From the IMG/VR virus record IMGVR_UViG_3300025137_000072, positions 1 to 43,831 of that record: a DNA stretch of 43,831 nt; one strand, 5' to 3'. The DNA comes from a virus. Position 1 is the stretch's first letter. Each line of letters opens with the position of its first letter. A program made the position numbers and the translations under genes. This document shows, piece after piece, positions 5,411-43,831 of the stretch. The notes beneath the pieces were generated by a model that had not been told where the DNA came from, ran no database searches, and was given only the letters and a program-made list of their open reading frames with translations.

Positions 5411-5735
5411 TCATTCTACCTTCTAAGTCTTTTGCATCAGTCAGTGCATCTTTGACTAGATTCAGTTGTTGTAATTTATCACGGAGACTATCTCCGTATT
5501 GTTCAGCCTTTTGTAAATCTACTTGTAGAGATTTATTGAGTGCTCCTAATTTTTCTTGATTTTCGATTGCTGCATCTAAACTTGCAGATGCTGTTTGTAC
5601 CGCAACTTCGAGTTGTGCATTATTCTTAGTAAGGACTGCAATCTTATTTTGTGTGGTGTCATAATAGTATTTAGCACTATATGCTACACCACCTAAGATT
5701 GCTATGACAAATATTAAAGCATAAAGCTTAAGCAT
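5232..5735 (-). CDS. inner-membrane coiled-coil protein, i-spanin (Rz-like)
   Basis: An N-terminal transmembrane segment (LYALIFVIAILGGVAYSA, residues 4-21) is followed by a long helical region (about residues 30-110) with heptad-like Leu, Ile and Ala spacing, then a hydrophilic Gln/Asn/Ser/Thr-rich tail encoded where the Rz1-like frame overlaps. This matches type II membrane i-spanins. The start at 5735 overlaps the end of the upstream spike gene by eight bases. With the lipoprotein it would span the periplasm, implying a Gram-negative host. Confidence 0.75.
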   Translation of the reverse strand: MLKLYALIFVIAILGGVAYSAKYYYDTTQNKIAVLTKNNAQLEVAVQTASASLDAAIENQEKLGALNKSLQVDLQKAEQYGDSLRDKLQQLNLVKDALTDAKDLEGRMNGATAKLWREITTDTGGDGGRPIPNWLQQSKAASGDQDGNQNRESSNTDSNTTEASTTQ

Positions 5736-6984
5736 CTTCTAATGCTTCTACTCTAGCTTTGAGTTCTTTTATACTATTTAACATAACCCAGAATAACTCA
5801 TCTTTGTTAACAGACTTGATACCGTTATCTCTAGTTGTTACGGTATTAGGAAGTAAACTCTCTAATTCCTGAGCCATAACACCAACAATAGTCTTTTCTG
5901 TATCTAAACCTTCATGTACAAGTCCAGCACTATCAGCTAATGCAGGATGCGCCGTAGCAATATCAGAGTCAGAAAGATAGTTATAAGTCTTTACATTTAC
6001 TTGATCTAAAACAGTTAGACCGGTTGTGTAGTTTGTTACATTAGTTTTAATACGTTCATCAGATGTTGTTTGAAATGCCGAATGATTTTGTTCATTGTAT
6101 ACACCACTAGAACCACCTAAATAAAAAGTATAGTTGCCTTTACTTGTTAGTCCGTTACCAATAACATATTGTTTAAAAGCAGAAGTAGCAGTAGGGTTTA
6201 AAGTTTTTCCAATAAGAATATTGTCTCCATTATGTGCGCTAAGTGCAGTAGTGAGACCCATGGTATGGCCAATAATAACATTACCAGCCTGACGAACCAT
6301 ACCCGCATCAGTGCCTATCATAATGTTATCATTGGCCGTTGTTATGTTTTGGCCAACACTGTTTCCAATTGCAAGATTGCGGGCACCAGTATTAGTCGAT
6401 GGATTGCCGCCAGAAGCGCCAAACATAACGTTCTGACCAATTCCTATATTATTATCGCCGCCCATACGATAACCAGCTCTATAACCAAGATAAACATTAT
6501 ATTGATCGTTAGCACTTGTTATTTCTTTACCAGCTTCAAAACCAATTTTCATATTACCAATACCACCAGTTGATGTGGTATCTGATGTGTGATGTGCTGC
6601 GCCAGAGACAACAGTGTAATCGCCACCGCCTCCGCCACCGCCGGATCTTAACTGAACATAAGCAGAATCAATAAGACTCGATGTTCTTTCAGAATCAAGT
6701 GAATTGGCTTCTACATAAGCTGAATCAACAAATGGGCCTCCAATTCTAAAAGCAATGTAATTAGAATCAATTAGTTGAGTAGTTAAACTAGAATCTAAGT
6801 CACTACTATTCGCTGTAACTAGTGTTATTACTTTTGCTGAATCTACGTTACTGCTATTTGCTGCAATCAATGTTAAGATTTCAGAAGAATCAACTCCGGA
6901 AGAAGTATTTATTAAAGCAAGATTGCTAGTGTTAGTAGCATCTGTCTTACCGAGTATTTGTGCAACGTCTCTTGATCTACTCAT
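5728..6984 (-). CDS. tail spike/fibre protein with C-terminal S74 intramolecular chaperone
   Basis: The protein starts with MSRSRDVAQILGKT, the anchor peptide also found at the propeller genes. Asp-Ser-rich shaft repeats (LIDSAYVQ, VDSAYVEA) follow to about residue 110, then a Gly run. Residues about 140-300 hold repeated NIxIG-type turns (NNIGIG, NLAIG, NIMIG, NVIIG, NILIG), suggesting a YadA-like or beta-helical trimeric stalk. The C-terminus is a peptidase S74 domain: TTSDERIK with S308 and K313 as predicted autocleavage dyad, and an ELFWVMLNSIKELKARVEAL coiled coil. S74 domains fold the trimer and then cut themselves off. The receptor is unknown. Confidence 0.88.
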   Translation of the reverse strand: MSRSRDVAQILGKTDATNTSNLALINTSSGVDSSEILTLIAANSSNVDSAKVITLVTANSSDLDSSLTTQLIDSNYIAFRIGGPFVDSAYVEANSLDSERTSSLIDSAYVQLRSGGGGGGGDYTVVSGAAHHTSDTTSTGGIGNMKIGFEAGKEITSANDQYNVYLGYRAGYRMGGDNNIGIGQNVMFGASGGNPSTNTGARNLAIGNSVGQNITTANDNIMIGTDAGMVRQAGNVIIGHTMGLTTALSAHNGDNILIGKTLNPTATSAFKQYVIGNGLTSKGNYTFYLGGSSGVYNEQNHSAFQTTSDERIKTNVTNYTTGLTVLDQVNVKTYNYLSDSDIATAHPALADSAGLVHEGLDTEKTIVGVMAQELESLLPNTVTTRDNGIKSVNKDELFWVMLNSIKELKARVEALEDA

Positions 6985-42317: not shown

Positions 42318-42337
42318 AAAATTTTCTCCTCATTTCA

Positions 42338-42394
42338 TTTTATAGATATATTATACCATAGTTTTACTCATTTGTAAACAAAAAAGTGAGCAAA
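42338..42394. repeat. 57-bp promoter repeat, copy A
   Basis: This copy and 43469-43525 are the same length and differ at four positions, all inside the promoter spacer. Both include an upstream box ending in a T6 tract and a short TTTGT-N2-ACAAA palindrome over the -35. Confidence 0.85.
42350..42378 (-). promoter_or_regulatory. early-type promoter A for the KOW-like and DUF932 genes
   Basis: Minus-strand TTTACA (42373-42378) and TATAAT (42350-42355) are 17 bases apart with TGG before the -10. The surrounding 57 bases (42338-42394) match promoter B at 43 kb at 53 of 57 positions. The four differences fall in the spacer, so the -10, -35 and upstream T-tract are conserved. Confidence 0.8.
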
Positions 42395-42646: not shown

Positions 42647-42824
42647 AGAGTAGCTCCTCTACTGATTTAATATGTTTGCACTTTCTGAAAGCAATGCAGG
42701 TACAATCGAAACCTGAATCGTACATGCCAACAAGGTAGTTGTTACCCTTACTTCCAGTGACAGGCCATTGGACACCCACGAATGGGTGTCCTTTGGTATT
42801 AATGAGTTCTGACTGGTGTGCCAT
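42627..42824 (-). CDS. SWIM-like zinc-finger protein, 65 aa
   Basis: The protein contains DCTCIAFRKCKHIKSVEEL, matching the SWIM signature CxCxnCxH with short spacing, after a beta region (WPVTGSKGNNYLVGMYDSG). SWIM domains bind DNA or proteins. It shares an A at the stop-start junction with the upstream gene (ATG at 42824) and overlaps the next gene by 20 bases. It is a candidate early regulator or host-factor binder; the target is unknown. Confidence 0.75.
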   Translation of the reverse strand: MAHQSELINTKGHPFVGVQWPVTGSKGNNYLVGMYDSGFDCTCIAFRKCKHIKSVEELLCAEPNS

Positions 42825-43027
42825 TAGTGCCTCTCATGATCCTGATCGGTGAATTGAGAAACACGATCAGGATCTGCTTTGTGTGAAAAGACAACAGTAT
42901 CGTTATCCATATCAACATCGCCAAACATACGATGATCATGAACCAGATGGACGAAATCAGGCTTACCAAAAACCCGAACTGCTGCCATATAATCATTATC
43001 ATTTCGAAAACCAACAAAGTGTAGCAT
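42824..43027 (-). CDS. small acidic hypothetical protein, 67 aa
   Basis: The ATG at 43027 has a GAGGAG ribosome site nine bases upstream. The 67-residue protein begins MLHFVGFRNDNDYMAAVRVFGKPDFVHLVHDHRMFGDVD, likely a small alpha/beta domain, and ends in a charged Asp/Arg/His tail. A longer frame at 42799-43017 is a shadow. The structured repeat at 43058-43185 is directly upstream, so its expression may depend on RNA structure. No function is known. Confidence 0.72.
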   Translation of the reverse strand: MLHFVGFRNDNDYMAAVRVFGKPDFVHLVHDHRMFGDVDMDNDTVVFSHKADPDRVSQFTDQDHERH

Positions 43028-43057
43028 TACAAAACTCCTCTTAATAAACCCCTAATT

Positions 43058-43185
43058 CAAAACTATTTACTAGATACGCCCGAGCTAGTATCTCCAATCT
43101 CTGAGATTGAAACTAACATCCCTTTCGAGATAGTGTTTTTAGCTGATCAACGCCTCTACACGGACGTATCTAGTAAGTAGTTTTG
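43058..43185. repeat. inverted repeat with branched fold, candidate structured RNA or element
   Basis: Arms 43058-43082 and 43161-43185 pair over 25 positions with one mismatch and one wobble. Inside, AGCTA (43083-43087) can pair with TAGCT (43140-43144), TATCTC (43089-43094) with GAGATA (43127-43132), and CAATCT (43095-43100) with AGATTG (43104-43109). AGATAC of the left arm (43072-43077) can instead pair with internal GTATCT (43088-43093), so two folds compete. A CGAAAG tetraloop appears on the minus strand. No ORF fills it. A multi-branched transcript, an attenuator or a mobile element with terminal repeats are options. Confidence 0.7.
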
Positions 43186-43192
43186 ATTTATT

Positions 43193-43264
43193 CTATATAA
43201 ACATCAAGATTGGAAGTGATGCCATTGCGAACATAAAGATAATTCCGAGTAAAATCTGCATCAT
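43193..43264 (-). CDS. micro-membrane peptide, 23 aa
   Basis: The ATG at 43264 (two ATGs in a row) follows CTAGGAGATT. The 23-residue peptide MMQILLGIIFMFAMASLPI continues with four more hydrophobic residues and is hydrophobic throughout, enough to span a membrane once. The stop at 43193 falls just after the 43185 arm. A clean ribosome site supports translation. The function is unknown. Confidence 0.6.
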   Translation of the reverse strand: MMQILLGIIFMFAMASLPILMFI

Positions 43265-43270
43265 AATCTC

Positions 43271-43447
43271 CTAGAAACGAATTGCGGCTAATGCACAAGC
43301 AGTCTCGCTTGCTTCGATACCGAGCTCTTTAGCCAGCATATACTGTAGAGAGTCTGAAGAAGTACCTTCAGGCTGTGACATACAAAAGTCAATGATTTCT
43401 CTCCAAATATCATTGTGATCCGGATTCTGAAACTCAAACTTAATCAT
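43271..43447 (-). CDS. small hypothetical protein, 58 aa, first gene of the early operon
   Basis: The ATG at 43447 lies behind GAGGAGTTTTATA, 34 bases after promoter B. The protein (IKFEFQNPDHNDIWREIIDFCM, then DSLQYMLAKELGIEASETACALAAIRF) looks like a small helical fold with an N-terminal beta strand. Its TAG overlaps the ribosome site of the 23-residue peptide. It is probably an early protein; no family was recognised. Confidence 0.68.
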   Translation of the reverse strand: MIKFEFQNPDHNDIWREIIDFCMSQPEGTSSDSLQYMLAKELGIEASETACALAAIRF

Positions 43448-43468
43448 TATAAAACTCCTCTTTATTTA

Positions 43469-43525
43469 TTTTATAGATATATTATACACTATTTTTAATC
43501 ATTTGTAAACAAAAAAGTGAGCAAA
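43469..43525. repeat. 57-bp promoter repeat, copy B
   Basis: This is the partner of copy A at 42338-42394, with 53 of 57 identical. It abuts the rightward gene at 43528, so the conserved upstream box lies in that gene's 5' flank. Confidence 0.85.
43481..43509 (-). promoter_or_regulatory. early-type promoter B for the small-protein operon
   Basis: Minus-strand TTTACA (43504-43509) and TATAAT (43481-43486) are 17 bases apart. It starts the leftward early block and is divergent from the gene at 43528. Confidence 0.8.
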
Positions 43526-43527
43526 GA

Positions 43528-43831
43528 ATGAATAATAATGATAAAGCAATGATGAGACTATTAAGCATGTCAGATTGGCAACAACTGAAGTGTAACTTTA
43601 GTTCAAAGAAAATGCTAGAAGAATTGAAACAGTTTGACGGTGATTGGAAAAGATACAATCCTTCAAAACTTAAAAATAATAGATGGGGTCTTAGTGTAAC
43701 TAGTTTAGATGGTGGTCTTAGTGGTATACCAGATTTGACTAGTCTTAAAGAGCATCGCGATAATACAGGAGAAAAAGTATCTGATAGAGATATTATTGTA
43801 CCTACTGATGTGTGGAAAAAATCTGGTGAAG
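43528..43831 (+). CDS. rightward conserved hypothetical protein, N-terminal part
   Basis: This is the only confident rightward gene; it runs off the window edge with 101 codons visible. It starts MNNNDKAMMRLLSMSDWQQL with a helix, then has NNRWGLSVTSLDGGLSGIPD, a block I recall from conserved hypothetical proteins of marine T4-like phages, some of which resemble 2-oxoglutarate/aspartyl hydroxylase folds. The catalytic His-X-Asp part would be beyond the edge, so that link is weak. It diverges from promoter B; a promoter for it is not evident. The ribosome site is weak (GTGAG). Confidence 0.75.
   Translation, partial: MNNNDKAMMRLLSMSDWQQLKCNFSSKKMLEELKQFDGDWKRYNPSKLKNNRWGLSVTSLDGGLSGIPDLTSLKEHRDNTGEKVSDRDIIVPTDVWKKSGE

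Follow-up and report, generated by a model that had tools for sequence, protein, structure and literature searches.

An inverted repeat between small early genes of a T4-like phage

The window analyzed here is the whole of a 43.8-kb IMG/VR virus record, IMGVR_UViG_3300025137_000072 (43,831 nt), which encodes a portal, major head protein, tail sheath and terminase of the T4-like type. Among major head proteins, that of Phage C48C1 is the closest to its own (68% identity), followed by those of Methylophilales phage Melnitz and Pelagibacter phage HTVC008M (59%). On the minus strand, a predicted sigma-70-like promoter (TTTACA-17-TATAAT, 43481–43509, 11 of 12 consensus matches) is followed in order by p58, a small open reading frame kept in relatives (43271–43447), a 22-aa hydrophobic open reading frame (43193–43261), a structured element (43053–43190), a Shine-Dalgarno sequence, AGGAG (43035–43039), and the 67-aa open reading frame p67 (42824–43027). 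Promoter-like sites numbered two in this region against 2.9 expected in shuffles. No terminator was found in the region scanned, 42800–43560. The element thus lies, as the initial annotation had placed it, between two small leftward reading frames, the 22-aa one and p67, and within an early transcript that would start at the predicted promoter.

Two smaller features of this region were also noted. The 22-aa reading frame, MQILLGIIFMFAMASLPILMFI, falls below ordinary cut-offs for open reading frames; it has a ribosome-binding site and is conserved at 57–100% identity across many relatives. A 61-nt cassette is duplicated in the window (42334–42394 and 43465–43525, 92% identity), and the early promoter TTTACA-17-TATAAT lies on the minus strand of its second copy, so the early region may rely on promoter units present in duplicate.

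The large inverted repeat described in the initial annotation proved to be real. Its 30-nt arms (43053–43082 and 43161–43190) are 90% complementary and are separated by a 78-nt spacer, with an ungapped stem score of 21; the second-best stem of the window reached 14, as did the top-scoring one among 40 dinucleotide shuffles. No other stem in the window is of comparable strength. The minus strand of the element, which is the strand of the adjoining early genes, folds at -55.3 kcal/mol (z = -7.9, equaled by none of 200 shuffles) compared to -46.2 kcal/mol (z = -6.8) for the plus strand.

In the minus-strand fold, the three internal helices that had been annotated were again predicted, enclosed by a long helix. 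This closing helix, P1, pairs 43186–43162 with 43081–43057, an assignment that draws on the fold and on compensatory changes. Next comes the P2 arm GUGUAGAGGCGUUGAUCAGCUAAAAACAC (43133–43161), conserved more strongly than any other part in the family described below and assigned from alignment, covariation and fold, with an apical loop, GUUGAUCA, at 43144–43151. From its self-complementarity, the inner tetranucleotide of this loop, GAUC (43145–43148), is our proposed site of a homodimeric kissing contact. P3 (43118–43131) is a hairpin with a C(GAAA)G tetraloop, and P4 (43084–43117) is a hairpin that in the window does not carry the conserved tip module AGAGCGGCANNGUCAAUAAGNCCGUGCGG; both were assigned from fold and alignment.

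A covarying RNA family in uncultured phages

We searched IMG/VR, whose contigs are uncultured and partly redundant, using the neighboring proteins and fragments of the element as queries. The exact P2 core occurred in 31 contigs by pattern search and P2 pattern matches in 79, and the P4-tip module occurred in 47 contigs and then in 107 once the pattern was relaxed. Relatives of the element are therefore present in at least 107 IMG/VR contigs, mostly from T4-like phages. A covariance model (R1) matched 93 of the 93 sources searched, all of them preselected by a pattern match. The window copy, itself part of the training set, scored 122.8 bits on the transcript strand (43057–43185; E ~4e-30, a rough value given the short calibration) and 35.9 bits on the other, and it has the P1-P2-P4 junction, conserved P2 core and self-complementary loop of the family.

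The element is mostly a single-copy feature. The model matched 34 of 35 records scanned (up to 275 kb), each at one place, and the further listed matches hit that place on the complementary strand; in the remaining record it found no match. A tandem second copy, shorter than the first, was seen in L094 only. Adjoining shorter or degenerate second copies were noted at L094:416–533 (complement) and upstream of the main element in L155; the two L094 copies differ in their loop (GGCC and CCGG), and such a tandem duplication possibly serves heterodimers. The element is missing altogether from some relatives that carry p58 or p67; the model had no match in such relatives, nor in the isolates Melnitz-3, C48C1 and phiM12. 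The initial annotation had held that homologues without the arms would count against it; some p67 homologues do lack the whole element, but all full-length copies keep their arms.

Consistent with the earlier failure to recognize a known RNA family, the whole window had no match at gathering score in Rfam 15, whose families include riboswitches, ribozymes and introns, and below that score the element and its full-length relatives had matches at chance level only. Weak matches to CRISPR-repeat families were considered and rejected as chance; the sequence concerned, GUUUCAAUC, belongs to P4. Searching phage isolates by blastn with the element and one full-length relative returned short chance matches only, and two patterns found no relatives among GTDB genome contigs. 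This structured RNA family was previously uncatalogued; our literature coverage excluded most subscription journals, and an earlier description is possible. Its carriers are uncultured, mostly aquatic T4-like phages.

The covariance check in relatives proposed with the initial annotation was strongly positive. In an alignment of 29 distinct copies (A1; 52 pairs tested), 97.4% of paired cells could pair, compared to 37–47% when partners were slid, and double compensatory changes occurred in 13 pairs and 79 cells, compared to 8.6 and 29.6 in shuffles. The copies, 110–230 nt long, share a four-way junction in which P1, of ~22 bp, is the closing helix, the P2 arm hardly varies, P3 may be absent and P4 is modular. 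P1 carries most of the covariation, with compensatory changes in 9 of its 22 aligned pairs, while its two ends, ACU/AGU on the outside and CGUC/GGCG on the inside, do not vary. Two pairs are U-G in all 29 sequences, and ~15% of paired cells, counted over the pair table of A1, are G-U. These G-U pairs become mismatches on the opposite strand, which favors an RNA on the transcript strand. Taken together, the comparative evidence indicates that the conserved element is an RNA that folds into a four-way junction.

The peripheral helices differ between copies. P3 is the GAAA hairpin in the window, a C(UUCG)G hairpin in L034, an insert of ~50 nt in others, or absent. The P4 tip AGAGCGGCANNGUCAAUAAGNCCGUGCGG is usual in the family and has been lost from the small clade of the window, and P4 is even shorter in L044 and L057. 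The window copy is thus a reduced member of the family, and from its sequence it may be partly degenerate.

Covariation also bears on whether the arms could be the terminal inverted repeats of a MITE-like mobile DNA element, related to the suggestion in the initial annotation of a terminal-repeat element. The presence or absence of the element beside p67 among close relatives, and its varied insertion contexts, are what such an element would give. Terminal repeats, however, should keep their sequence and recur several times per genome, and here the arms vary with pairing kept, most records hold one copy, the transcript strand pairs best, and the G-U pairs and tetraloops favor an RNA of one strand. 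Neither a target duplication nor a transposase was seen, and we regard a mobile element as a most improbable explanation.

The initial annotation had also pointed to an alternative partner of the left arm within the element and had read the competing folds as a sign of a switch or attenuator. The alternative pairing does exist in the window copy, as 6 bp between AGAUAC and GUAUCU. It is, however, 18.6 kcal/mol worse, with a pair probability of ~1e-12, and it is not conserved: its two outer pairs are broken in 19 and 14 of the 29 aligned relatives, and its covariation is not in excess. With neither a conserved, mutually exclusive fold nor a terminator in 42800–43560, a switch or attenuator appears very unlikely.

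A long, perfect intercistronic helix whose sequence varies with pairing kept is also what one would expect of an RNase III processing site or mRNA stabilizer between early genes, as in the early region of T7. If the element were merely this, its inner loops would be irrelevant, and there would be no need for a near-invariant P2, a conserved P4 tip or a self-complementary loop that covaries; moreover, the element is found mostly once per record rather than several times. We consider it improbable that processing or stabilization is the whole of its function.

Gene contexts of the element

Copies of the element were found before p67 or p67-like genes, before tRNA clusters, between other small genes, and alone. 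Many precede tRNA genes, with tRNAs downstream in L037, L052, L070 and L086, although most copies lie outside tRNA clusters. Near-consensus promoters occur 15–61 bases upstream of the P1 region in L037, L038, L064, L086, L092 and L094. At L144, a locus of a 204-kb contig, the element sits between a promoter (TTGACA-17-TATATT, 5628–5656) and an intrinsic terminator (5914–5938), after which a new promoter serves the next gene. Long neighboring genes showed a modest orientation bias, with 38 in the same direction as the element and 13 in the opposite direction.

At 23 of 52 distinct loci, the Shine-Dalgarno sequence of the next gene (AGGAG or GGAG) falls within the 3′ arm of P1, with the start codon just downstream, and the gene that follows is often a p67-like small gene (MRTVHYVG..., its kinship to p67 judged by visual similarity only). 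A cis role is therefore possible at these loci, and the element could be a regulator of translation in which P1 buries this Shine-Dalgarno sequence until a signal opens the helix. Against this, the Shine-Dalgarno sequence in the window lies outside the element, past the end of P1 at 43057; no conserved alternative fold that would release a buried site was found; and there are the copies that precede tRNAs and the L144 copy with its own promoter-terminator unit. A regulator acting purely in cis does not fit this range of contexts, and we consider such a regulator unlikely. All of them are compatible with a trans-acting RNA that at some loci would also cover the ribosome-binding site of the following gene.

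A self-complementary P2 loop and a candidate homodimer

We gathered P2 loops regardless of their content, giving 18 distinct loops of 8 nt. Four palindromes occur at positions 4–7 (GAUC, GGCC, CCGG and GUAC), as do two wobble variants, GGCU and UCGG. These positions form a strict palindrome in 16 of the 18 loops and are self-complementary in all 18 when G-U is counted, compared to 0–2 of 18 in neighboring registers. None of 200,000 column permutations reached the observed count. Because the 18 loops are related by descent and hence are not 18 independent tests, a fairer count takes the six distinct tetranucleotides alone, for which p is ~0.0003–0.001. Neighboring bases of one loop are unable to pair with each other within a molecule, so compensatory change among them implies pairing between two copies. 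Pairing of the P2 loop with the P4 tip of the same molecule was considered and rejected, the tip being constant while the loop varies.

From this pattern of change we strongly infer that P2 loops kiss symmetrically between two copies of the RNA, giving a homodimer. A 4-bp contact would be weak alone, and extension to 6 bp is possible in some loops only. By comparison of the copies, the P2 loop is the one candidate for a conserved contact between copies, so a dimer would be expected rather than a cage. Overall, we estimate a probability of about two in three that the element represents a new family of noncoding phage RNAs, structured and forming homodimers through the P2 loop, and that in the window it is part of an early-operon transcript. 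Transcription of the early operon would yield the RNA of the window, and cleavage of P1, which is probably an RNase III substrate, would free it from the flanking small genes. Two copies would then pair through a symmetric kiss of 4–6 bp between P2 loops. As a guess, the dimer would be trans-acting, serving during takeover as an RNA scaffold or ligand for some factor of host or phage.

Small RNA loops build functional RNA multimers in the HIV-1 dimerization initiation site and in the phi29 pRNA, the latter using two different loops and serving DNA packaging. The 8-nt P2 loop with its self-complementary center resembles the loop of the HIV-1 site, although sequence and context are unrelated to either RNA and no Rfam match to either was found. 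T4-like phages also encode the small stable RNAs RNA C and RNA D in or beside tRNA clusters, a setting shared by some copies of the present family, most of which lie outside such clusters.

The closest parallels to the loop itself are in larger RNAs. The OLE dimer was seen by cryo-EM and was supported by the switching of GGCC to GAUC or AGCU, and kissing of OLE L9.3 and GOLLD L21a was inferred by the same palindrome-switch argument (PMC12286853). Like OLE, ROOL and GOLLD, the present family has palindromic bases that covary within a loop predicted to kiss symmetrically, and as in OLE (GGCC, GAUC, AGCU) its inner tetranucleotide alternates among palindromes. OLE, however, is much larger and binds protein, whereas the phage RNA is of 110–230 nt and has another fold, with no match to OLE in Rfam. 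ROOL and GOLLD are, like this family, phage noncoding RNAs often found beside tRNA genes, and they form homo-oligomers through kissing loops (PMC12286853); these nanocage RNAs differ in being much larger (GOLLD RNAs are often longer than 800 nt) and in having many intermolecular contacts, and neither was matched here in Rfam.

Few natural RNAs form homo-oligomers, and those known from phages, GOLLD and ROOL, are large. The present family is small, may be easy to synthesize, and offers many natural palindrome variants for rescue experiments, so the role of phage RNA multimers would become directly testable with it. It also adds a class of RNA to phage genomes, which have so far been catalogued chiefly by their proteins and tRNAs. 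A broader reading, which we offer as a tentative possibility, is that small, modular, obligate RNA dimers form a widespread class and a core early effector of the T4-like phages of aquatic bacteria, binding and redirecting a host machine as a symmetric RNA-RNA pair, and that lineages exchange their loop, P3 and tip modules to match different hosts; if true, that machine might be the ribosome, RNA polymerase, a nuclease or a defense system.

Several contigs bearing the element may encode further RNAs. ARAGORN identified permuted tmRNA genes at L064:9467–9844 and L068:7460–7922 (complement), with tags of alphaproteobacterial type (ANDNVAPSGYALAA and ANDNFAPSEIALAA); phage tmRNAs have been described from Melnitz and its relatives (PMC9004378). 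In L063, L104, L154, L155 and L156, a common G/C-rich stretch, GGGGAGGGGCACUGCAGAAAGUCCCUCCC, lies just 5′ of the element and could be a structured RNA. L065 and L162 share a conserved stretch, CCAGGTAAGG...GATAGGCAGCCGGGGCGGGGGGCGTG, upstream of the element, which contains no obvious gene and is possibly a noncoding RNA.
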